From Rhypophila decipiens (Eukaryota; Ascomycota; Sordariomycetes; Sordariales; Naviculisporaceae), in the NCBI GenBank assembly GCA_033297075.1, contig MU858350.1, positions 1 to 23,364 on the forward strand: DNA of 23,364 nt, given 5' to 3'. A model generated the notes under the pieces. It was not told the origin of the DNA and made no database searches. It was given only the letters and a program-made list of their open reading frames with translations. A program made the translations under genes and the position numbers. Shown piece by piece: positions 1,182-23,364 of this stretch. Numbering within the stretch: position 1 is the stretch's first letter; the number at the start of each line of letters is the position of its first letter.

Positions 1182-2328
1182 TCAATGCGACCTCTTCAAC
1201 CCGTGACCCTCGGCATGATGTTTCTCATCCGACTCGGGAACCGTCCTGGAGCCGTTATGCCGGGACACGACCCAGCTTCTCAGCTTTCCAAAGTTTCTGC
1301 AGGTATGAGGTACATCCGAGTTCACATAGTTGCGGCCTAGAAAATCTGTCCACTCGGTCGGGATCAACGTCATGTCTCCGTGGCACATGAGCATCTGTCG
1401 GATGTGGTCGATGCAATGCTCTGTAGGGTTGGAAATATCAGTATCGGGTTTTTGATTGATTCGTACAAAAAAACCAACCTCTGTGGATATAAGTATTGTG
1501 ATGGGTGGACTGCGGATAGTAGTCGGGCCAGAACGCCTGTCGTAGGCGGTTCTGCACGCGAGTAAGAAACGGTGACTATTTAGCCTAGAGAAATAACAGG
1601 TAAAAGGAAGAGGGAAAAGAAAAGAACTTACAAGGCAGTGGAGGGCATGAAACATGTCGATGCTGTGCAAAACAAAACACGACCCGTGTAAGCCATACAC
1701 TGGAACCGACGATAAACGGTCCTTATCAGAAGAAAACTCACCCAGCCATGTACCCGCCAACTTTATCATTCCAATACAAGTCAGACGCGCTCCCAAAGGC
1801 ATCAGTCGCCTCCTCGGCCGTGATGCGGAAATATCGCCCCGCCGTGATCTCCTCCCAGTTTTCATCAATCTCGGCCGATGGCTCCCCGATATATGTCTTC
1901 TCCCCGGGGTTCGGGACATAGAAGGTCCCGTTCTCCATGAACACGGGTGCGCCCGTAAAAGTCACCATCTCAGTCTCAATCTCGGACCGGAGCGGCTTGA
2001 AGTCCGTCGGGCGGGCGAGAGGAAACTCGCCGGCGCCGCCGCGGGACCATGGTCCTCTGTGTCCGTACTGCAGCACCGACGAGGTCATGAATGTGAGAGT
2101 TAATATCCAGGGGAGGACTTGGAGGAATGTAGGGCGTGATGGTGAGCCGCGTGGAGGGGCAGGAGGTGTGTTGTGAGGATTTTCCTCTTGGTCGTGGTGC
2201 TTGGGCGCTTGGTCGTGATATCTAGAGTCATCTGCGTCCGCTGACGATAGTGGCAGAGGGTGGTATTGTCTGCGTGAAGCGGACGGGGAGTTGGTGCTCC
2301 ATAAGGTGAAGAATCGAGCCATCTTCAT
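1182..2328 (-). CDS. UstYa-type (DUF3328) oxidase A
   Basis: DUF3328/UstYa proteins are membrane-anchored oxidases that act on secreted RiPP or other peptides: oxidative cyclisation, hydroxylation, desaturation or chlorination, depending on the member. My model has four exons (2328-1742, 1662-1632, 1551-1479, 1420-1182) with introns of 79, 80 and 58 bp and encodes 309 aa. The cytosolic N-terminus is Pro/His-rich and a single membrane segment lies at about 68-88. Both family motifs are intact: HALHC at 201-205 and, across the last intron, HREHC at 229-233. They are followed by MLMCHGDMT and the C-terminal HTCRNFGKLRSW. The start is the first ATG of the frame; a second ATG lies two codons later. 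The gene lies about 1.1 kb beyond the end of the RiPP precursor and has the same orientation. The N-terminal tail is longer than in its paralogues here. Confidence 0.9.
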
Positions 2329-3416: not shown

Positions 3417-3823
3417 CTAGAGCTTCTTGTCCGCTCCCTCATCGTCACCATTGTAGCGCTTCTTCTTGTCAGCGCCCTCATCGTCACCATTGTAGCGCTT
3501 CTTCTTGTCAGCGCCCTCATCGTCACCATTGTAGCGCTTCTTCTTGTCAGCGCCCTCATCGTCGCCATTGTAGCGCTTCTTCTTGTCAGCGCCCTCATCG
3601 TCACCATTGTAGCGCTTGCCGAAGCTGGTAACGGCGGGCTTAGAACCAAGGTGGCGGACGGCCAAGTTGCCCGCTGGAGCTTTGTTAGTTGCCGTGAATG
3701 TGCATCTGTCGATGATAGTTCAGAGTTTGGTTGATTTCTCTTACCAGCAGGACCCGGAATGGCAACGGCGGCGCTGAGGCAGGCCATGGCGAGCAAGCTC
3801 ATAGTGACCTTGGGGAGCTGCAT
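3417..3823 (-). CDS. Dikaritin-type RiPP precursor with five identical Kex2-bounded repeats
   Basis: Two exons (3823-3745 and 3679-3417) joined across a 65-bp intron (gtaaga..caaag) give 113 aa. Residues 1-21 form a signal peptide (hydrophobic core LLAMACLSAAVA). A short leader ends in Lys48-Arg49, and residues 50-112 are five copies of YNGDDEGADKK joined by KR. This layout (signal peptide, then tandem repeats each cut by Kex2 after KR) is that of ustiloxin/phomopsin-type precursors, where the mature core starts with an aromatic residue directly after KR. By that rule the core would start at Tyr, most simply as Tyr-Asn-Gly-Asp-Asp, with EGADKK as the discarded spacer; the exact C-terminal boundary cannot be read from sequence. 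The last copy ends KKL-stop without a KR. The surrounding five UstYa genes support the call. A plain secreted repeat protein is the alternative. Confidence 0.87.
3423..3611 (-). repeat. 39-bp coding tandem repeat (five copies, last truncated)
   Basis: Each unit encodes YNGDDEGADKK plus KR. The five copies are identical in protein. At the DNA level I see only three silent differences: one GGT/GGC in the second copy from the N-terminus, and two in the last copy (GGA for GGC and GCG for GCT). Such near-identity suggests recent amplification or ongoing homogenisation by unequal crossing-over or gene conversion. Confidence 0.95.
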
Positions 3824-4558: not shown

Positions 4559-6385
4559 ATGTCGACATTGAGGGACCAAGACGACATCGAGGCCGACATT
4601 GGGCGTCGAGCCTCCTCCCTTGGACGCCGGGCAATGGCTGTTGCAAAGAAGGCAGCAGCAACAACAACAATAACAACATGTTCGCTTTGCCTGGCTCTTC
4701 TCCCAAGCTGGGCCCGGGCCCAGCTCAAACCCCAAACCAGTCGACCGCCGGTGAAAAACTTCGAAAGAGCACATCACGCATCCTCAGCCTACATGGACGG
4801 CCTCCGGGGCCTCGTTGCCGTGTTAGTCTTTGTCCGGCACTTCACACTACCCTGGCAGGATCACATCGACTATGGCTACGGATGCCAAGACAAGTACTAC
4901 GGCGTGCTGCGCCTCCCATTCCTTCGTCTCCTCTACGCCGGACCCCTTGTCCCGGTCTTTTTTATCTTGTCCGGCTATGTTCTCTCGGCCAAGACCATCC
5001 GCCATTTACACACCATGTCCATATCGTCGCCATCAGGGCCAACACCAACGTGCAGCCACGACGCCGTTGCCACCCTGTTCATCTCGCTGTCTGGTTCGGC
5101 GTTCCGTCGGGCGCTTCGTCTCTTCCCACCGCCAATCATCTCGACCTTTTTGGTCATGCTGCTCACCCACTTCGGCCTCTTCTCCTTCGACTACGCCGTC
5201 ATGCCCGGACGCCAACCCGAGCACGCCGAGGCCCTGAGCACCTTTACGGCGCAGCTCAGCCACTGGGCATCCTTCGTCGGCGACGAGCTGATCAACCCCT
5301 GGCGCTGGGACGTCCCTCGGCTCGTCTATGGGCCTCACCTGTGGACGATACCCATCTCCTTCAAGGGATCCGCCGTCACCTTCCTCACCTGTCTGGTGAT
5401 TGCGCGGGTAGCGCGCCCCGGCGTCCGGCTGGCTCTCCTCTGCGCCGCCATCGCCTACGCCCTGTCCCGTGGCCGTTGGGATATGGCTCTCTTTTTGGCA
5501 GGGATCCTCGTCTGCGAGCTAGATGCACGACGCATACCACCTCGTGACACAGATCATCACCATGATCATCATCCTAGCGAAACCAACGAGGAAAAGAAAC
5601 CGCCAACCAAGCACCTCCTCTCCACACTCGTGCTCCTCCTCACCCTCCTCACAGCCCTCTACCTAGCCTCCTTCCCCCGCTCCAACAACGGCGGCCAAGA
5701 CTGCGTGCCCGGTTACGTTACCTTCTGTCGCATCACCCCCAACTACCGCTACTGGCATGCCCTTGCCGCCTTCCTCATCGTGCTATCCGTCTCCCGCTCC
5801 GCCAGCCTCCAACGCCCCCTAGTCTCACCCCTCGCGAAATACCTGGGCCGTATCTCCTTCTCGATGTACCTCGTGCACGAGCCGCTATTGCACATCTTTG
5901 GCTTTTACACCGTGCCGTTTTTCTGGGCGCTGACCGGCATGGAGAGTGGGTGGAGCTATCAGGTGGGGTTTGGGATGGGAATGATGATGACGGCCTTTGT
6001 CTTGGTTTGGGTGGCGGATTTGTTTAGGGCGTGGGTTGAGGTGCCGTGTGGAAAGGGGGCGATGTGGTTGGAGGGCGTTTGTTTGGGGGGGGGTGATGCT
6101 TGGTTGCCCTTCTATGTGGATTTGCAAATCCTACCCATCCATTTACCTACCTGCCAATGTGGATTTAGGTGTTTTGTTGGGTATCGCAGGGAAAGCCTGG
6201 GTTTTGAAGGGCAGTTGGGAAGGGACGCAGGAATCGGGATTGGTTGGCTCGTCTACTATAGTGGTAGTAGACTCTCTATAACCCGCAAACGGCGACAGGG
6301 AGGTAGAAGAGCGAGGCGGACTTGTGTGCCGTCAACAGCCTTGGCGAGAGTGACCGACAGGGGCATCTTTTTGTTATCTATATAG
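4559..6385 (+). CDS. Membrane acyltransferase, acyltransferase-3 family
   Basis: Acyltransferase-3 (OafA/NRF6-type) proteins are multi-pass membrane enzymes that move acyl groups, often acetyl, to sugars, peptides or secondary metabolites. The single frame encodes 608 aa. After a basic and Ala-rich N-terminus comes YMDGLRGLVAVLVFVRHF, giving the family's Arg-X10-His pair (Arg83, His94). FFILSGYVLSAK follows, then several hydrophobic segments and the C-terminal signature GRISFSMYLVHEPL. The gene is divergent from the RiPP precursor, which suggests a tailoring role, but this is inference. The last about 95 residues, after an unusual nine-G run (6085-6093), are low-complexity and unlike the family. 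One extra G would end the protein at about 512 aa, near the usual length, so the tail may reflect a sequence error, a real frameshift or an unrecognised intron. Confidence 0.82.
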   Translation: MSTLRDQDDIEADIGRRASSLGRRAMAVAKKAAATTTITTCSLCLALLPSWARAQLKPQTSRPPVKNFERAHHASSAYMDGLRGLVAVLVFVRHFTLPWQDHIDYGYGCQDKYYGVLRLPFLRLLYAGPLVPVFFILSGYVLSAKTIRHLHTMSISSPSGPTPTCSHDAVATLFISLSGSAFRRALRLFPPPIISTFLVMLLTHFGLFSFDYAVMPGRQPEHAEALSTFTAQLSHWASFVGDELINPWRWDVPRLVYGPHLWTIPISFKGSAVTFLTCLVIARVARPGVRLALLCAAIAYALSRGRWDMALFLAGILVCELDARRIPPRDTDHHHDHHPSETNEEKKPPTKHLLSTLVLLLTLLTALYLASFPRSNNGGQDCVPGYVTFCRITPNYRYWHALAAFLIVLSVSRSASLQRPLVSPLAKYLGRISFSMYLVHEPLLHIFGFYTVPFFWALTGMESGWSYQVGFGMGMMMTAFVLVWVADLFRAWVEVPCGKGAMWLEGVCLGGGDAWLPFYVDLQILPIHLPTCQCGFRCFVGYRRESLGFEGQLGRDAGIGIGWLVYYSGSRLSITRKRRQGGRRARRTCVPSTALARVTDRGIFLLSI

Positions 6386-6953: not shown

Positions 6954-7932
6954 CTATTTGCTTCCAGGCTGATACTCAACCTTCTCGGGCTTCCAGTGCT
7001 CCCAGACGGTGACATCGGGCAGGTGCAGGCCGCCGCCGGCATGGTAGCGGTTCCTCGTCCACTCTCTCAGCTTATCAAAATTCCTGCACGTGTGCACCAC
7101 ATCCGAGTCGGCGTAGTTGCGACCTGGATTCTCAAACCAGCGCGTTCCGTAAGCCGTCATGTCGCCGGCGCACATGATGTACTGCCGGATTTGGTCGATG
7201 CAGTGCGCTCTATGCCGCACATGGGCTTCGTGGTGTTTTGGATCAAGCGTGTAGTACTCGGGGTAGTAGAACCTGCGGAGGTTGTCCTGAGATGGACGGA
7301 GAAGAGAAACCTGTCAGTGTCTCCTCAACAGAAGTTGTCTCGACGGGAACTGGCACCACCTACCAGACAGTGCAGCGTGTGGAACACGTCCAACCCAACC
7401 GAGTACCCCTTCTTCCTGCGATGCCAGTGCACATCAATGTCAGCTCCCCAGAGCTCACGAGCCTCTTCCTCGCTGATGAGAAAGTCCCGCTCGCCCGTGA
7501 GATCTGCCCATGCCTGGTCAACCTCTGGGCTGGGTGGCCCGACGTAGTCGATGGGTGATTTGTGTGTGACGACGAAGGTGCCATTCTCGTCAAACTCACC
7601 GTTGCCATAGAACTGGACGTCGTGATACTCGATGACGCCCCGGGCGGCAGCTGAAACGCTCGAGTTAGCTTTATTGTCATGATGATTGTTATTTTTCACA
7701 AAGGCCTGAATGTCTCTAACTTACGAAAGTCGGATGTCCTCCAAGCCGTGGAAGCCTTACGCTGGAATGTCAGGATGCGAGCCGTCAGGCCAACGCAGAG
7801 TACTGCCAGAAAGGCGGTGCTGCAGACCCATGGCCAACGACGCGGCGGTCTTGTAATCGTGGAGTCGGGAATCAAAAAGTCTGATTCTGAATCTGCGTCT
7901 GAAGACGTTTTGTCTTTCTGGGAGGAGGTCAT
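6954..7932 (-). CDS. UstYa-type (DUF3328) oxidase B
   Basis: Three exons (7932-7725, 7650-7364, 7286-6954) with introns of 74 and 77 bp encode 275 aa. One membrane segment lies at about 34-54 after a Ser/Asp-rich cytosolic tail. The lumenal part contains YVGPPSPEVDQAWADL, then HTLHC at 160-164, DNLRRFYYPEYY just after the intron, HRAHC at 190-194, IMCAGDMT and HTCRNFDKLREW. This is the most canonical UstYa protein of the window, with all expected residues. An alternative first donor 36 bp earlier (CAGC|GTAAGG) keeps the same phase and would shorten the protein by 12 residues; I prefer the GTAAGT donor. It is divergent from UstYa gene C, with 509 bp between start codons. Its substrate is presumably the Tyr-containing peptide from the nearby precursor. 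Confidence 0.92.
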
Positions 7933-8441: not shown

Positions 8442-9348
8442 ATGACCTCCCTCAAAGACAGATTTTTATTCATCCTTACAACTCTTAGGTTCACTCCTCG
8501 TGGACGGTACGCCGAGGTGCCCGATTCTGATGGCCCGGAACACGATGGCACCCTCGAAGAAATCCACAAGGCCGAGCCGAACGGAAGAAAGCACCCGAAA
8601 AAACTCACGTCGAGCACGTGTTTAACAATTGCCATAATTGTAATTGTTGCTATCGCTATCTGGGGCTTGGTCATGCTCGCCTTCAAGAAGCCAAGTGATA
8701 AAAAGGGGCAGTTCACAGTTTTCCCCTTTCCCAAGCGTAAGTTCCTACACAGGTCCCGTTCAATAGGGAAAACCCCATTCAGAATCTCGAAATTGACCAC
8801 AAGCAGTAGAAGCAACCAAAACTAAATTGTTTCTACCGAATTACAAGTACTTGAATTTGTCCAGCTCCCACTCGGCGAGCGCCTGGGACGTCCTCGGCCG
8901 CCACGGAGACGTCTTTATCCCGTCGTCGCATCTCGACCGGTACGGTCTACCTCGGGGTCTGGAGACGACGGTAGAGGGCTACGATAGCTACCCTCCTTCT
9001 GTCTTCTATCAGCTGCACTGTTTGGTGAGTAACTCCTTTGTAGTGGACGTCAAAGACCATCTCCGGGCGCTAATTCCCAGGCAGAAATCTATCAGAAAGC
9101 ATTACTCTGCGCTGCAGAGCAATACTCCTCTTGTAGACCCGGTAGAGAATCATGTCGATCATTGTTTTGACTATCTGCGTCAAGCCATCATGTGCAGTGC
9201 GGACATGACGCTGGAGAAGGCAAGGGTCGAACCTGATGGCCACCGACGGAAAGTCGACGGGTGGGGGACAACTCATCAATGCCGCAACTGGGGGCAAGTG
9301 CTTAAAATTGTGGCAGAACGGAGTCCTCCGCAGATACCGTATAGTTAG
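8442..9348 (+). CDS. UstYa-type (DUF3328) oxidase C, first motif altered
   Basis: Three exons (8442-8736, 8807-9024, 9085-9348) with introns of 70 and 60 bp encode 258 aa. The acceptor of intron 1 is a tandem site (AAG at 8803 or CAG at 8806) that changes the protein by one residue without changing frame. A strong membrane segment lies at 59-81 (LTIAIIVIVAIAIWGLVML). The first family motif reads YQLHC (166-170), with Tyr where the first His normally stands. The second, HVDHC (194-198), is intact and is followed by IMCSADMTLEKA and HQCRNWGQVLKI. The region between membrane segment and first motif is shorter than usual. The changed residue may alter metal binding or chemistry; a sequencing change of a single base (CAC/TAC) cannot be excluded. 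Confidence 0.87.
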
Positions 9349-9686: not shown

Positions 9687-10734
9687 ATGGCCCCTCCATC
9701 CCTTGACCTCGAAATGGACGAACAGTCTTCCCCTTTTCTCCCCAGGCACAGCAGAAGCAGACAAGCCAAAGAATCAACGAACCATCCCAAAACCGTCCCA
9801 TTTATCCAGCGATACTCCAACACGTGCGTTTTCACTCTGCTCTCCCTATCAGCAGCGTTCCTCGTCGCCGGCATCCGGGAAGGGCCGACATACGCGCAAT
9901 GCACCAAACAGTTAAACGGCTGGTGTAAGTCTCTGGGGCTTTCTACCTGATCCAGGGTTGAAAAAAAAGGAGGCGAGAGCAGGATGCGCTGACAGAGGGT
10001 GTTGGATGAAAAAGCGCCAATGCTGGAAGCAGTCGAGTACTACGACACGACCGAGTCCTCAGGCGCCGTCGTGGGACTGGGGACCGCCCCGTCGGCTCTG
10101 TACATGGGATTTCCCACATCGACGCTGGAACATGCTTGGGATGCCTTGTGGCAATGTGAGTTCCGTTGGTCTGCTAAACCTGGTTCTAAGGTCCAGTAAC
10201 GCTGACGATTTGTGCGTTCGTTATCTTGTGGGGGCAGTCGGATCAATGGGCATCCCGGAAAGTCAACTCCCGCTGCTGAACAAGACGGCGACGGAAAGGG
10301 ACTGGCATCACTTGCCTCTCCATATAGGAGGAGGGATCCAAGCGTATTTCGAGGGATTCCACTATATCCATTGTTTGGTGCGTACCAAGGAAAGAAAACA
10401 TGACGTGATGTATCTCTGACTTTGGTTGTTGCCCTCCCAACAGAACCTCGCTCGCCAGTACACATACCGCCACGAGTACAACTACAGCCATGTGCATGCC
10501 TTCAGCAACCCGAATGTGGGCATCCTCGATCACGTCGAGCACTGTCTCGAGATGCTGCGGGTGAGGATCATGTGCGATGCTGATCCGACCATGTACCCTG
10601 TATCGGGCGGCGACGGTGGATCGAAATGGACTATCCACACGCGGCCGAGGAGAGTCTGCAGGGACTTTGGCAAGATGGTACAGTGGGCAAATGAGCACAT
10701 CACAGTGCCGTTCGAGATGGAAAAGGATGCATAG
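9687..10734 (+). CDS. UstYa-type (DUF3328) oxidase D
   Basis: Four exons (9687-9922, 9998-10155, 10238-10377, 10444-10734) with introns of 75, 82 and 66 bp encode 274 aa. One membrane segment lies at about 46-63. The lumenal domain has EAVEYYD, APSALYMGFP, AWDALWQFGSMGIPESQ, then HYIHC at 173-177 and, in exon 4, HVEHC at 208-212, IMCDADPTMYP and RVCRDFGKMVQW. Both histidine motifs are intact. Intron 1 needs a GTGTAA donor and an AGAG acceptor, which is weaker than the others, but an in-frame TGA just upstream leaves no better choice. The gene is tail-to-tail with UstYa E (46 bp between stop codons). The phase-1 intron inside WQF is shared with gene E, suggesting that D and E are closer relatives. 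Confidence 0.88.
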
Positions 10735-10780: not shown

Positions 10781-11637
10781 TTACACGACAAGAATGGAGT
10801 CCAAGAGTGAATGATGCGGTGACACAAAGTGTGATGCTGCCCATTCCAGCACCTTATCGTAGCTCCTACAGTAATGGTCGTTCCCCGTCACAGGAACGAT
10901 GCCCCGGGGAAAGCTGGCATTGTTCGCGATCAGGTACGGCGTCGTGTCGCAGGCGCAGACGAGATGCTCGCGCAGGACCGAGATGCATCGGTCCACCTGC
11001 TGCCGGGACGACGGCGTGAAGAGAGTCTGGTTGTAGTCTCGATATACGAACTGTCTCAGGAGTTTCTGCCGCAGCCCGTCAATGTCATGTTTCTCATGGA
11101 CAGCCCATGGGAGACTAACCAGACAGTTCATTTGCAGCACGACGCCGGGGACAGCGAAGGCCGCTCTGGTGGATATGGGATGGCTCGGTGCGACGCCAAC
11201 GACACCAACTAGAATGGAAAGGGCATCCTGTTAGCGAACGAAAGTGAAAGTGAGGTTTTACGTCCCACGCCGGTAGATTGGAGGGCCACGAACACGGGGT
11301 GAACTCATCCCATGCGGCCTGGCGGTCTGGCGTAGGCGGTCCTCGGTAGACGGCGTAGGGAACATAGTGGTCTCGGAAGTTTTCCCAGTGATATTCTACT
11401 GCTTCGTTGGCCGGTGCTGCCATGCATTGTGATCAGCTTTGCGAAAGATGACAGAACGGCAATTGCACCGTCGCCCTCGGGAAGGGTGTAGGACTGCTTA
11501 CAGCCGGGGAACAGGAGCTCGGTGCAGTCGGCATCGGTTGGAGGACGTGCCACACGGATTCCGTAAAACGCTGCCGAGGCGATGAGAGATAGCGAGCTCA
11601 AAGCGACTTTCAAGACGGCCGAGTGCCGTTGGAACAT
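10781..11637 (-). CDS. UstYa-type (DUF3328) protein E lacking the histidine motifs
   Basis: Four exons (11637-11502, 11416-11294, 11208-11120, 11065-10781) with introns of 85, 85 and 54 bp encode 210 aa, shorter than the other four. There is a membrane segment at about 7-25 with almost no cytosolic tail. The lumenal part keeps the family frame: EAVEYHWENF, YRGPPTPDRQAAWDEF, LVCACDTTPYL and HYCRSYDKVLEW. However, the first HxxHC motif is LQMNC (111-115) and the second is QVDRC (139-143), so all four motif histidines are gone while both cysteines remain. Exon 2 uses a GTTCGT donor that I chose because it keeps frame and matches an intron position in gene D. The frame is open throughout, so this looks like a retained, possibly non-catalytic partner protein rather than a pseudogene. 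Confidence 0.83.
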
Positions 11638-12259: not shown

Positions 12260-14600
12260 ATGGCGACTCCCAGCACTCGCACCAAGTGGCCTTGTCAGCT
12301 GCCCGGCTTCTTCGACGCCACGGCGTCCTCGCTCGTCCAGGATGCCCAGAACCTCGTCGACCAGACCAAGTCTGTCTGGGATAGGATTGTCGCCCATGTG
12401 CAGCACCCCAGCAACGCAACCTTCACCAACACCATCTTGCCCATAGCTCTGGACGAGAACGCGTCGGCGGCTCGCATCCTCCGCTTCTACGCATCGACAT
12501 CACCGTCCAAGGAGCTGCGCGATGCGAGCAACACCGCCACCAAGATCCTGAGCGACGCGGACGCGGGCCTGTACTCGCGCACCGACGTGTTTGTCCTCGT
12601 TGATGCTGTTCTGAACAAGATCGACGCCGCCGAAGGTGAGCATGCCCATCTAGACGACCAGTCCAAGTACTATGTCCGCAAGCTCCACCGGAAGATGTAC
12701 CAGAATGGGTGTGGCCTCGGCGACTCGGATCCGACCGCCAAGGACGCTTTTGAGCAGGTCAACAAGCGGGTTCAGGAGCTCGTCCGCCGGTGCACCGCCA
12801 ATCTGCACCAAGATCCATCCGGCATCTGGCTTTCCTTGGAAGAGCTGGAAGACGTACCCGACAGCGAGATTTCTGCGCTGAGAGGGCAATCAAGGGCAGT
12901 GGTCAACGCCAGCGGGCCAGAGGGAGACCCCGCTGGAAAACTTTGGGTGAAAACAAAGCTTCCGCACCCCAACAGAGTCCTCGCCCATGCAAAGTCCGAA
13001 GCCACCCGCAAGAAGATCTACTACGCTATCAAGAACCGCCTTCCTGAGAACATACCGCTGTTCCGCGAGCTGGTGCTCGCTCGTGACACGCTGGCGAGGA
13101 TGCTCGGCTACAGCAGCTATCTGGCGTACAAGACGGTAGACAAAATGGTGCAGACGCCTGAGACCGTAACTAGCCTGCTAGCTGGGATTCGGCGGGGGAT
13201 TCGTGCAGCCGTCCTCGCCGATGTGGCCAGTATGTTGACCATCAAGAAGGAAGAGGAAGGGCTAGGGGACGACGCGAAGCTGTTCGCGTGGGACGAGGAC
13301 TTTTACCTTCGAATCCGGAAGCAAAGAGACAAGCCCGACCTGGACCTCAGCAGCGTTCCAGAGTACTTTGAGCTGGGTAACACCCTGAAAATCCTAATAA
13401 GCCTGTATGGGAGGCTCTTCGGCACGCGATTTGAGCGTATTTCCCTTGACCCCCAGGGTCAGAGCGAGCTGGGCGGGCCGCTGACCTGGCACGAGGATGT
13501 ACAGATGTATGCCGTGTGGGATGTTGTTGACGACGGCACTGGTGAGGATGAGTTCCTCGGCTACGCCTACTTCGACCTGTTCCCTCGTGATGGAAAGTAC
13601 GGCCATCGCGGCACCTATGCTCTGACTTGGGGTTATGATCACCACCCCCAGAACGGTGAGGGAGATGTGCCCGAAACTCGTTTCCGCCCGTCCTGCGCCC
13701 TAGTCATGAATTTCCCCAAGCCTGCCGAAGACGGCACGCCGACGCTGTTGAGTCTTGTAGACGTTCGGAGGCTGTTTCACGAGCTTGGACATCTCCATCA
13801 CACCCTCTGTACCAAAGTCAAATACGCAGGGCTTTCATATATCGACAGGGACTTCGTCGAGGCACCCAGCTTGATGCTAGAGCGCTTCTTCTGGAAGCCG
13901 TCTTATATTAAAGGCTTGGCTCACCACTACTCGTATCTCTCGGCCGAGTTCAAGGAGGCCTGGTTGAGAAGCCAAGCCAAGAAAACAACCTCAGAGAGTT
14001 CCGATATCGACGTTGCCAAAGAGCTGACAGCCGAACAACCTCCACAGAAACTTCCAGACCGAGCCATCGCCGAGCTCGCAGATACAAACCCCAAGCAGTT
14101 CGTCAACGGCCAGGCATTCAACCTATTCCTTTCGCTCTACGACATCCTCGTCCACAACCCCGCCACGCACGATGAACTCGAACGTATGAACTTGGCTGAG
14201 GAATTCAACAAACTGCATACCGAAATCACAGGCTTCCACGGAGGTGAGGCCGTCGGTGATGGCTGGGAATGGGCTCATGGCGAGTCCGTGTTTCGCATGA
14301 TCGTTAGCGGATACGACGCCGGATATTACTCCTACGTTCTGTAAGCCATTCATTCTTCTGGCTGGCTCTCTCTCGTTGTAAGAACTGACCAAATATAGCG
14401 GCAGAGTGCACTCTCTGGACATGTGGCGGGCCGGTGGCTTTGAGAGCAACTTGAATGACGAGTCTGAGAAGGAGGCTGGCAGGAGGTTTCGCCGGGCGAT
14501 TTTCGAGCCCGGTGGAAGTCAACCCGAGATGAAGACGCTGACGGACTATCTCGGCCGCGAGCCGAGCAACGACCCTTATTTTGAGTGGCTCGGCGTTTGA
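12260..14600 (+). CDS. M3-family metallopeptidase (thimet oligopeptidase-like)
   Basis: M3 peptidases are zinc enzymes that cut short peptides inside a narrow channel. Two exons (12260-14340 and 14399-14600, 58-bp intron) encode 760 aa, close to the size of thimet oligopeptidase and saccharolysin. The zinc site is complete: HELGH at 507-511 and the third ligand Glu534 in DFVEAPS. Near the C-terminus GYDAGYYSYVL supplies the conserved substrate-binding tyrosines. No signal peptide is visible, so it is probably cytosolic. The start ATG has a favourable context (GACATGGCG). Its position beside the UstYa genes fits a role in trimming Kex2-released repeats or in product turnover, as peptidases accompany other dikaritin clusters. 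M3 enzymes are also general housekeeping peptidases, so cluster membership is inference. Confidence 0.93.
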
Positions 14601-17625: not shown

Positions 17626-18940
17626 TTTGTGGCAGCGTAAATAAGCGCTGTGGCGCCTAACAGCGCCAGAACCTAGAACTCATTTGGCGAGTAATACTGC
17701 GGGCACACACCCCCCACTTTTCCAAGTGATGGCAACTAGCCTTGAATTTCAGCATTTCACAGCCAAAAACCCCTGCTAGAAAGGTCCACACCCATATAAA
17801 CTGCAATTAACAGATTTAACTGCGTTTGACGGATTTGACTGCAATTGACAGACTTGAACATAATTAACGAATTTGACTGCAATTGACGATTTGACTGTAA
17901 CTAACGAGTTTGACTGCGAGCGACGGATTTAACTGCAATTGACAGACTTAACATTGAATGCAAATTATGCAATTGACTGTAAAATGGGTGTGGTTTATTG
18001 GTGACCTCACGCATTCAAGAGCAGAGGATAGAGTAGTGTAGTTTGGCCACAACGGGTCACCTGGCGCTCCCGGTCTTATGAGCGGGGGCGTCAGATGGGC
18101 CCCGTGCGCGCTCCCTTAAGCAGGGAGGCAAAATTGTCTGTAGATTGAAAGTCTATGTACGATTGTATGTGATGACTTGGGTACAGAGGGATGGAGGGAG
18201 GGAGAAGACACGCCTTGACTGTGTGAAACGTGACGATACTGATCACAGAGACGAGATGCAGGAGGAGAGAAAACCCCTCATTTCGCTGTCGGCTTCGGGA
18301 GCCGATATATGTCAAGTCACGTGTGGCAACCCCAATAAAAACACCCCCTGTAAGTGATGGGTTGAGCCTAGAATAGGTGTATATTTTGTATGGTAAATAC
18401 TGTAGTTTCATTGCTAGCTGTAATTCGTACAAGTATGTGCCTCCGGTATTACTCTTTATTTTTAGATTATAGGCGGGCCCTGCAGCAAGAATTCACTTGG
18501 CGAGAGGCGGGTAGGGCTTTGATAATGGGTGATTGGTGTTAGTGGCGGCGGGGGCAGGATCTGATAGGCCTCCTTTCCTTCACGCGATCCCTCTTTTTAC
18601 GCAACAGACCCCGAACCCCCCACCCTCCCCAAAAAGAACAGTTAGATGGCGTTGTAAGCAATAGACCAACGACGCCTGCAAAGTGACTACCACCGTCAAG
18701 GGGTTGCGGAGGTATACGAACAAGGATCCGCGTCTCTGGACACTGACAGTTGTGCATAAACAACGGCCGAGAAGTCGAAAAAGAGGACGGTACGATCGGG
18801 ATTTGTCCATCTCCCAAGTTAAGCTGACAGGTTTCACCAACAGCGTTCACAGAGCGGCCTTTGTCTTTTTTTCCACAGGCAGACGTGCCGACCCATCCCA
18901 GCCCAGCCACCCAGCTCCTGCCGTTCCCACCCGCTTCCCT
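17626..18940. other. Intergenic region with a minisatellite
   Basis: About 1.3 kb with no supported gene. It holds the 19-bp tandem array at 17799-17949, AT-rich flanks, and towards 18940 the presumed promoter of the DUF6601-like gene. Open frames near 18091-18432 and 18539-18910 show no domain and look fortuitous. Confidence 0.55.
17799..17949 (+). repeat. 19-bp tandem repeat array, eight units
   Basis: Units start at 17799, 17818, 17837, 17856, 17875 (18 bp), 17893, 17912 and 17931 and follow the pattern GACTGCAATTGACAGATTT with substitutions in each copy. A degraded ninth copy and a partial GCAATTGACTGT follow to about 17980. The divergence among units indicates an old array. Within each unit TTGAC/TTAAC motifs recur at about half-unit spacing. 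Confidence 0.88.
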
Positions 18941-19704
18941 ATGGCTCCGCTAGATGTCCGATCCTGGCCGGTATATGAGCAGTCCTACCATCATTCAAAT
19001 GTCCATACCGTCTGACTACTACATTATAGCTCAAAACAACGGTGCTTGTAGAGGAGGGCACCACAGATTCCCTACCAGCTACCTATCACTACTATAAGGC
19101 CGCTGGAAAACGCGTTGTCGGTAATCCAGTGGAGGATACTCCGGCTTTCCTCCAGAGGGAACTGTCCCTCGGGGACCTGGCCGATATGCTAAGGCACCTA
19201 TGGTTTGCCGGCGCAAGGCGCCCCGCCATACCACTACACTTTCATGCCGCCGTAGGCCGCGAGATCACCGTCGTCGACCGAATGGATCTGCACCTGCTCT
19301 GGACTAGTGACGGGAAGCTCCTCGTAAAACCCATCCCGCGCTTCCTTCTTCATCCAGTCTTTTGCCAGAGCAACCTCCAGTGTCCTAAGACTCCTAACGA
19401 CTGCACGTGTCGGGGACTTCCAGCAGATGCGTGCGGGCTGATCCCCCGGAGAGTCGCCCTTGGCTTCCTCTACACGTACGCTTGTCTCATATCATCCGAG
19501 AACGACTTCCATATCGCCAACGAAAAGCGTCTTTTGCCTCGCAAGGAAGACGACAGGTTGATTCAGTGGGCAGACTGGAAGAGCCTGGCGAGAGAGCTCC
19601 TCCAGATGTACCAGCGAGACCCGAACGTGGTCCACCCGCGCTTTCAGCACGCCGAGCTCCGCCTCTCCCGCATCAACACTATCCACTGTCACGGCGAGCC
19701 GTGA
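18941..19704 (+). CDS. DUF6601-like protein of unknown function
   Basis: Two exons (18941-18970 and 19030-19704) with a 59-bp intron (gtatat..tatag) encode 234 aa. The order of segments is FLQRELSLGDLADML, LWFAGA, GREITVVDRMDLHLLWT, LLVKPIPRFLL, then VALGFLYTYACLISSENDFHIANEK and, at the end, HPRFQHAELRLSRIN. This arrangement matches what I remember of a widespread ascomycete family (DUF6601) of about 200-350 aa whose function is unknown. The segment after PIPRFLL is Cys-rich (CQSNLQCPKTPNDCTCRG...C), which I do not recall as a family constant. The ten-codon first exon is inferred; without it the protein would lack a methionine start near the domain. It has no obvious relation to the peptide cluster. 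Confidence 0.7.
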
Positions 19705-22657: not shown

Positions 22658-23364
22658 ATGCGGCTCCTGGAGCGAGACCATACCGGCGAGTTCCGCCTGA
22701 CAAAGCACCTCCCGAACGACAAAATCCCCGAGATTCCACCCTACGCGATACTTTCACACACATGGGGCGACGAGGAGGTCCTCTTCAGGGACCTGGCGGG
22801 CGGCACGGCCAAGAACAAGGCAGGCTACGCCAAGATTCAGTTTTGTGGAGAGCGAGCCGAGCGTGATGGGCTGAGCTACTTCTGGGTTGACACATGCTGT
22901 ATCGACAAGGCTGACGCCGGCGAGCTTCAGCACGCTCTTAACTCCATGTTTCAGTGGTATCGCAACGCGGCCAAATACTATGTCTATCTTACAGATGTCT
23001 CAACATACAAGCGAGATGCTGACGGCAATTCTGAGTGGAAATTTGCTTTTCAAGGGTGCAGATGGTTTACGCGTGGATGGACCCTCCAAGAGCTGATCGC
23101 CCCAACTACCGTCGAATTCTTCTCCCAAGAGGGTACGTGGCTAGGAGATAAGCAGTGGCTGGGTCAACACATTTGCAATGCAACTGGCATTCCTCTCGGA
23201 GCTCTTCAGAGCAATGCATTGTCCGATTTCAGCATTGAAGAACGCATCTCGTGGGTCAAAAACCGCACTACAACACGCAAGGAAGATAAGGCATACTCGC
23301 TGTTCGGCATCTTCGACGTATGCATGCCCATTCTGTACGGGGAAGGAGAAGACAGAGCATTCAA
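22658..23364 (+). CDS. HET-domain protein, 5' part (runs off the window)
   Basis: HET domains trigger programmed cell death in fungal heterokaryon incompatibility, often as the N-terminal effector of NOD-like (NACHT-WD40) receptors. The frame is open from the ATG for 235 codons to the window edge. The opening MRLLERDHTGEFRLTK is that of HET-D/HET-E-like proteins. It is followed by YAILSHTWGDEEVLF, YFWVDTCCIDK, SMFQWYRNAAKYYVYLTDV, RWFTRGWTLQELIAP and, near the edge, EDKAYSLFGIFDVCMPILYGEGE. These are the complete HET blocks in order with no interruption. The resemblance to HET-E-like N-termini suggests that a NACHT and WD40 region may follow outside the window, but this cannot be seen. Confidence 0.93.
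   Translation, partial: MRLLERDHTGEFRLTKHLPNDKIPEIPPYAILSHTWGDEEVLFRDLAGGTAKNKAGYAKIQFCGERAERDGLSYFWVDTCCIDKADAGELQHALNSMFQWYRNAAKYYVYLTDVSTYKRDADGNSEWKFAFQGCRWFTRGWTLQELIAPTTVEFFSQEGTWLGDKQWLGQHICNATGIPLGALQSNALSDFSIEERISWVKNRTTTRKEDKAYSLFGIFDVCMPILYGEGEDRAF

Follow-up and report, generated by a model that had tools for sequence, protein, structure and literature searches.

A candidate dikaritin-type locus with a repeat precursor and five UstYa genes in Rhypophila decipiens

The phomopsin cluster and many clusters related to it contain tyrosinase and S41 peptidase genes, and the asperipin-2a cluster is free of a tyrosinase. Five dikaritins, namely ustiloxin, asperipin-2a, phomopsin, epichloecyclin and victorin, had been reported up to 2022 (PMC10512285), and in its broad current sense the class is defined by DUF3328 (PMC12048977). 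In asperipin-2a the rings are closed through ether bonds that link side chains of Tyr to beta-carbons, and conserved ED and KR motifs flank the core in the ustiloxin precursor (PMC6514808). Dehydro-Asp in phomopsins was assigned to the UstYa protein PhomYd by gene inactivation (PMC10880069). The DUF3328 enzyme CctR, for which hydroxylation was reported, is a membrane-bound copper dimer that requires dimerisation and carries two coppers in its HxxHC(x)nHxxHC motif, alanine mutants of which are inactive (PMC12435403). Among 7878 KEPs surveyed, 1758 are accompanied by DUF3328 genes, which lie on average 3.09 genes away, and 2560 lack any homologue (PMC7329392).

The window analysed here, i.e. the whole stretch of 23,364 bases, is the complete contig C306 of the 45.7 Mb assembly of Rhypophila decipiens (Sordariales, Naviculisporaceae). 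Between 1.2 and 14.6 kb, the genes follow each other in the order UstYa-1 (-), precursor (-), Acyl_transf_3 acyltransferase (+), UstYa-2 (-), UstYa-3 (+), UstYa-4 (+), UstYa-5 (-) and M3 oligopeptidase (+), with the following features:

1182 to 2328, minus strand: UstYa-1, four predicted exons, motifs HALHC and HREHC, PF11807 E 3.6e-43
3417 to 3823, minus strand: precursor gene, exon 1 from 3823 to 3745, intron from 3744 to 3680 or 3674, exon 2 to the stop codon at 3419-3417
3423 to 3617, minus strand: five 39-nt repeats coding for KRYNGDDEGADKK (Tandem Repeats Finder)
3761 to 3823, minus strand: hydrophobic leader, a putative signal peptide of about 21 aa from hydropathy only, border set by eye
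4559 to 6385, plus strand: Acyl_transf_3 acyltransferase, domain 4787-6007, PF01757 E 5.8e-22, 3' end unsure
6954 to 7932, minus strand: UstYa-2, three predicted exons, motifs HTLHC and HRAHC, PF11807 E 5.5e-45
8442 to 9348, plus strand: UstYa-3, three predicted exons, motifs YQLHC and HVDHC, PF11807 E 9.5e-29
9687 to 10734, plus strand: UstYa-4, four predicted exons, motifs HYIHC and HVEHC, PF11807 E 2.2e-37
10781 to 11637, minus strand: UstYa-5, four predicted exons, motifs LQMNC and QVDRC, PF11807 E 5.9e-21
12260 to 14600, plus strand: M3 oligopeptidase, exons 12260-14341 and 14399-14600, PF01432 E 9.7e-65

Given that five UstYa/DUF3328 genes and an M3 peptidase of the PhomG clade surround the precursor, a dikaritin-type cluster is well supported, and we regard it as likely that this is a dikaritin-type (ust-RiPS) biosynthetic locus. 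With respect to the broad sense of the term, DUF3328/UstYa genes lie near the precursor (five PF11807 models), two HxxHC motifs are present in three of the five DUF3328 proteins, and the cores are repeated with Kex2 sites (five copies, KR before each). Of the five components by which Ding et al. define the class (cited via PMC12048977), the peptidase or transporter is represented by the PhomG-clade M3 enzyme, and a tyrosinase was not found on the window contig. The dikaritin-type assignment made in the original prediction is therefore supported in that the PF11807 models and the M3 tree place the repeat precursor, which is of the Kex2 type, in a cluster of DUF3328/UstYa genes.

The precursor gene lies on the minus strand from 3823 to 3417 and has two exons; its product of 111-113 aa is deposited at NCBI as 'hypothetical protein QBC37DRAFT_328423'. 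The borders 3417..3823 assigned earlier correspond to the ATG (3823) and the stop codon (3419-3417), and the span contains an intron. According to the splice scan, this intron has the donor GTAAGA at 3744 and an acceptor AG ending at 3680 or 3674, the choice of which results in 113 or 111 aa; the acceptor at 3674 agrees with the public 111-aa model P0001. Averaged over 11 residues, the Kyte-Doolittle values of the leader peak at 2.4, and from this hydropathy, by which its signal-peptide character was judged, the precursor protein is probably secreted. Tandem Repeats Finder described 3423-3617 with a period of 39, 5.0 copies, 97% matches, 0% indels and a score of 369. The unit of 13 aa, KRYNGDDEGADKK, is identical in protein in all five copies, each preceded by KR, and the copy junctions read KK-KR; repeat finder, splice scan and hydropathy thus bear out the earlier observation of a leader followed by five KR-bounded, protein-identical copies. 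The five 39-nt copies differ at three positions in total, all of them synonymous third positions. Of the 117 single changes that the unit allows, 21 are synonymous, which gives this outcome a rough chance of 0.006 if changes among the repeat copies are random and independent.

The residues of the unit open to modification are Tyr, Asn, Asp, Glu, Ala, Gly and Lys only, with no Ile, no Trp and no aliphatic residue beyond Ala. A phomopsin/ustiloxin-type core, in which Tyr and Ile serve the ether ring, was not found, Ile being absent from the unit. An alpha-factor-type mating pheromone was considered and rejected, given a sub-cut-off match to PF20844 (E 0.13) and a unit without Trp. It had been stated that known cores start with an aromatic residue directly after KR. 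This is no rule, since in ustiloxin an ED flank precedes the core (PMC6514808). Nor does asperipin-2a, with its Tyr ethers to beta-carbons (PMC6514808), agree with the idea that Tyr needs a different bond partner and that the chemistry could be new; this idea is also countered by the phomopsins, where PhomYd was made responsible for dehydro-Asp, so that Asp is a reported UstYa target (PMC10880069). The core had further been called unusually acidic. In the KEP survey, Tyr is 'often accompanied by D', and multiple D's occur in the widespread types G-6 and G-5/P-1, of which 46/49 and 16/35 members, respectively, have DUF3328 neighbours; acidic units headed by Tyr and located next to UstYa genes are therefore a known pattern (PMC7329392). 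Our locus resembles these types (Umemura 2020) in the combination of Tyr with several Asp and in the DUF3328 neighbours, a likeness by description and not by sequence profile (PMC7329392). As to the statement that no product with this core is known, the exact core was not found in the open-access papers searched, where the sole 'YNGDD' stands in an unrelated paper.

In a protein search of 5.77 billion proteins, with 5744 candidates scored, no homologue of the precursor was accepted at E <= 1. Within this limit the search returned two rows, one being the precursor gene and the other P0002, an ORF from a metagenome that has NGDDEGA repeats but no KR site and was rejected as a chance match. A protein search of the repeat against its own 45.7 Mb genome returned the precursor locus and one weak match on C259 (E 0.39, 38% identity over 37 residues), at which the KR-repeat detector was silent (L010). 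The DNA pattern K-[R/S]-Y-x-G-D-[D/E] occurs eight times in the genome, comprising the five copies in the window and three single, unrepeated matches, and its backwards control gave none.

All five UstYa models passed the PF11807 cut-off, with E-values from 5.5e-45 to 5.9e-21. Their splice sites were set by hand. The UstYa-2 protein as analysed contains about nine extra residues from the first intron (the splice 7724-7651 would give SDFPAARGVIEY, like P0003), and the UstYa-5 protein as analysed is one residue off at the second intron; the HxxHC motifs of both lie outside these doubtful borders. Both motifs are intact in three of the five oxidases, UstYa-1, -2 and -4. In UstYa-3 (8442-9348, plus strand), one motif histidine is replaced (YQLHC). 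UstYa-5 (10781-11637, minus strand) has all four motif histidines replaced and both cysteines retained, and its match to PF11807 is still good (75.8 bits at a cut-off of 25). Judged from these motifs, UstYa-3 and UstYa-5 are possibly inactive or partner subunits within a working cluster, and UstYa-5, without copper ligands, could be a partner subunit beside working members. The protein search found a relative of UstYa-2 with 82% identity in Podospora aff. communis. Against solved structures, UstYa-2 gave five chance-level rows only (T-cell receptor chains, E 0.34-0.73); NCBIfam gave a single chance row for UstYa-1 and no rows for UstYa-3 or the acyltransferase. Across the genome, 67 UstYa exon matches form 34 loci when grouped at 10 kb, and the window contig leads with seven matches. 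Extended by 5 kb in both directions, the 34 loci cover 0.9% of the genome. A gene-merging script counted four UstYa genes here, equal to the locus on C3, whereas the hand-made models give five here.

The M3 oligopeptidase shares 43% identity over 99% of the query with 'Oligopeptidase PhomG' of the phomopsin pathway, which was among the 118 homologues listed. It is one of three M3 genes found in the genome, the others lying on C64 and C29. In a tree of 36 rows (33 hand-picked from the 118 listed homologues plus the three genes of the genome itself), the window enzyme and PhomG belong to one clade of 22 rows with a support of 100/100 and a stem of 1.24, within which they fall in different halves. 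The saccharolysin-like C64 copy, represented by a 380-residue piece, and saccharolysin-type rows fall outside this clade; C29 has a very long branch and an unsure place. PhomG is the only member of the clade named as a RiPP-pathway enzyme, and in Neoarthrinium moseri an M3 relative (JX266_011640) and a UstYa relative (JX266_011641) bear consecutive tags on same-sized contigs. PhomG and this pair suggest that the clade may serve RiPP pathways. Trichoderma harzianum and Podospora aff. communis possess both M3 and UstYa relatives on contigs of unequal length, which leaves adjacency unsupported in these two fungi; Echria macrotheca likewise has a relative of UstYa-2 or of the M3 enzyme. For the M3 protein, NCBIfam returned distant bacterial peptidase rows. 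Two metagenome proteins, P0044 and P0045, are 95% and 86% identical to it and lie on contigs of 7.8 and 11.6 kb, which suggests that relatives of the cluster are present in environmental data.

Compared with the phomopsin cluster (PhomA, PhomG, PhomYa-e), the locus has in common a leader-bearing precursor whose repeats are bounded by KR sites, a set of five DUF3328 genes (PMC10880069, PMC7329392), likened by number and not gene by gene, and a PhomG-clade M3 peptidase. It differs in that the contig carries neither tyrosinase nor S41 peptidase, no methyltransferase was found among the scanned ORFs, and the core is devoid of Ile, Val and Pro. With asperipin-2a, the cluster shares the lack of a tyrosinase; there, Tyr forms the ethers to beta-carbons (PMC6514808). 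In contrast, the asperipin-2a cluster has one UstYa gene, a transporter and a reductase, and ours has five UstYa genes, the M3 peptidase and the acyltransferase. The genome contains 60 tyrosinase and four S41 peptidase matches, none of either on the window contig, which may be cut on the left; the methyltransferase search covered part of the contig's ORFs. As the contig ends 1.2 kb to the left of UstYa-1, the gap for tyrosinase and methyltransferase is no proof of absence. Against the dikaritin reading we counted the lack of tyrosinase and S41 genes on the contig, the lack of a homologous precursor despite the UstYa-2 relative of 82% identity, the position of the M3 enzyme and PhomG in different halves of the clade, the two UstYa proteins short of histidines and the equal UstYa gene count at C3.

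The acyltransferase gene is divergent from the precursor gene, its family has 11 matches in the genome, and its membership in the cluster is putative. Beyond 14.6 kb, the four ORFs scanned comprise one DUF6601 ORF (19186-19704, plus strand) to the right of the cluster, one HET-domain ORF (22658-23364, plus strand) that runs off the contig end, and two without a family. An imperfect tandem array with a 19/38-nt period and the consensus AACTGCAATTGACAGATTT was observed at 17799-17952. A scan for bacterial promoters and terminators was set aside as meaningless in a fungus.

The scan for KR repeats covered 22 stretches (208,757 bases) that surround 12 of the genome's 33 further UstYa loci, and KR-repeat frames were found at three loci, C71, C59 and C21, 1-6 kb from UstYa matches. 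The C71 frame (L017 7761-7056, minus strand) encodes a KR-repeat precursor near a UstYa match with units APLYSLTALVGP, a leader and an intron after the leader as judged by eye. At C59 (L023 6739-7062, plus strand), KR-bounded GPPPPSW/GPPPPDW repeats lie near UstYa matches, and at C21 (L037 8081-8476, plus strand) two UstYa matches lie a few kb away from a precursor with a leader and four TNSYPKYGKAEDYEAVN-type units. The precursors on C71 and C21 share the leader with the window gene, and that on C71 also shares the post-leader intron; the units at all three loci are quite unlike that of the window. The detector misses precursors with fewer or intron-split repeats and is not fully specific, since at a looser setting it returned one unconvincing frame (L020) and one reversed-control match beside the three real-looking precursors.

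Given that the precursor is set among enzymes that modify such peptides in related fungi, the product of this fungus is very probably a compound of a known kind that has not been described before. The precursor architecture, the five UstYa genes and the PhomG-clade peptidase are read from the DNA, and from these we infer all processing and chemistry of the route outlined here as well as its product. The leader would take the precursor into the ER, and Kex2, following its known rules, would cleave after every KR; for ustiloxin, a Kex2 release of 13- or 14-mers before cyclisation is a speculation in the literature (PMC6514808). A Kex1-like carboxypeptidase and the PhomG-type M3 enzyme would then shorten the pieces, leaving YNGDDEGAD or a smaller core that begins with Tyr, a step suggested by the Kex2 rules and the kinship with PhomG. 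The trimmed core may thus be shorter than the 13-aa unit, and the acidic tail DDEGAD may be part of it or, by analogy with the ED flank of ustiloxin, a removed recognition or spacer piece. The released peptide would be oxidised by the membrane-bound UstYa copper oxidases, foremost UstYa-1, -2 and -4 with their intact HxxHC pairs, and UstYa-5, if acting at all, would be a partner subunit. The acyltransferase might attach an acyl group or might be a bystander, its role being a guess.

The likeliest changes would be an ether from the Tyr phenol to a beta-carbon, with Asn2, Asp4 or Asp5 as the partner, and/or desaturation of Asp. Precedents in the literature exist for Tyr-to-beta-carbon ethers (asperipin-2a), dehydro-Asp (PhomYd) and hydroxylation (CctR). 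At the same locus, the UstYa enzymes might only hydroxylate, desaturate or otherwise decorate a linear peptide, and to such an acyclic product we give some, limited credence: hydroxylation by a DUF3328 protein (CctR, PMC12435403) and desaturation of Asp (PhomYd, PMC10880069) have been reported and the acidic unit offers several Asp, but known Tyr-containing dikaritins are commonly cyclised through Tyr (PMC7329392, PMC6514808). A further-reaching possibility is an all-polar core (YNGDDEGAD or a shorter YNGD form), with no aliphatic side chain beyond Ala, that would be closed by a Tyr ether to an Asn or Asp beta-carbon, the histidine-less UstYa-5 contributing the structural part of a dimer with another UstYa protein. 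We consider this combination rather doubtful; an ether bond of this kind is not described in the dikaritin literature covered.

The precursor could also be a plain KEP, from which Kex2 frees acidic peptides that stay linear and serve in signalling or at the surface, the UstYa enzymes acting on another substrate. Most surveyed KEPs (6120/7878) have no DUF3328 neighbour (PMC7329392), and in a unit without any aliphatic residue larger than Ala the partner for an ustiloxin-type cross-link is missing. However, the precursor lies within a run of five UstYa genes with a PhomG-clade peptidase, no other gene for a peptide-like substrate was noticed on the contig, and Tyr, which heads our unit, occurs in 65.6% of DUF3328-linked KEP repeats as compared to 38.2% of the others (PMC7329392), which makes this explanation improbable. 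Least of all do we expect a decaying cluster, a former peptide pathway whose product is no longer made after the loss of some oxidase active sites: the replaced histidines (all four in UstYa-5, one in UstYa-3) and the failure of the protein search to find a precursor homologue elsewhere would fit, but UstYa-5 is readable across four predicted exons with its cysteines kept and a score far above the cut-off, the repeat differences are synonymous only, and the peptidase and three of the UstYa genes seem undamaged.

Read as a dikaritin-type cluster, this compact locus is a candidate source of a new RiPP from fungi. Judging by the producers named in the literature, including PMC12048977 and PMC6514808, no member of the Naviculisporaceae is the source of any of the five dikaritins in PMC10512285. 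A PhomG-clade peptidase is a possible extra flag when fungal genomes are mined for such clusters. The pattern of histidine loss among the UstYa proteins may perhaps be more original than the repeat precursor itself, and UstYa-5, which lacks the motif histidines, offers a way to test whether these dimer-dependent copper enzymes (PMC12435403) can function as mixed pairs. The product would reveal the scope of UstYa oxidases on a peptide without the usual Ile or a second aromatic partner.
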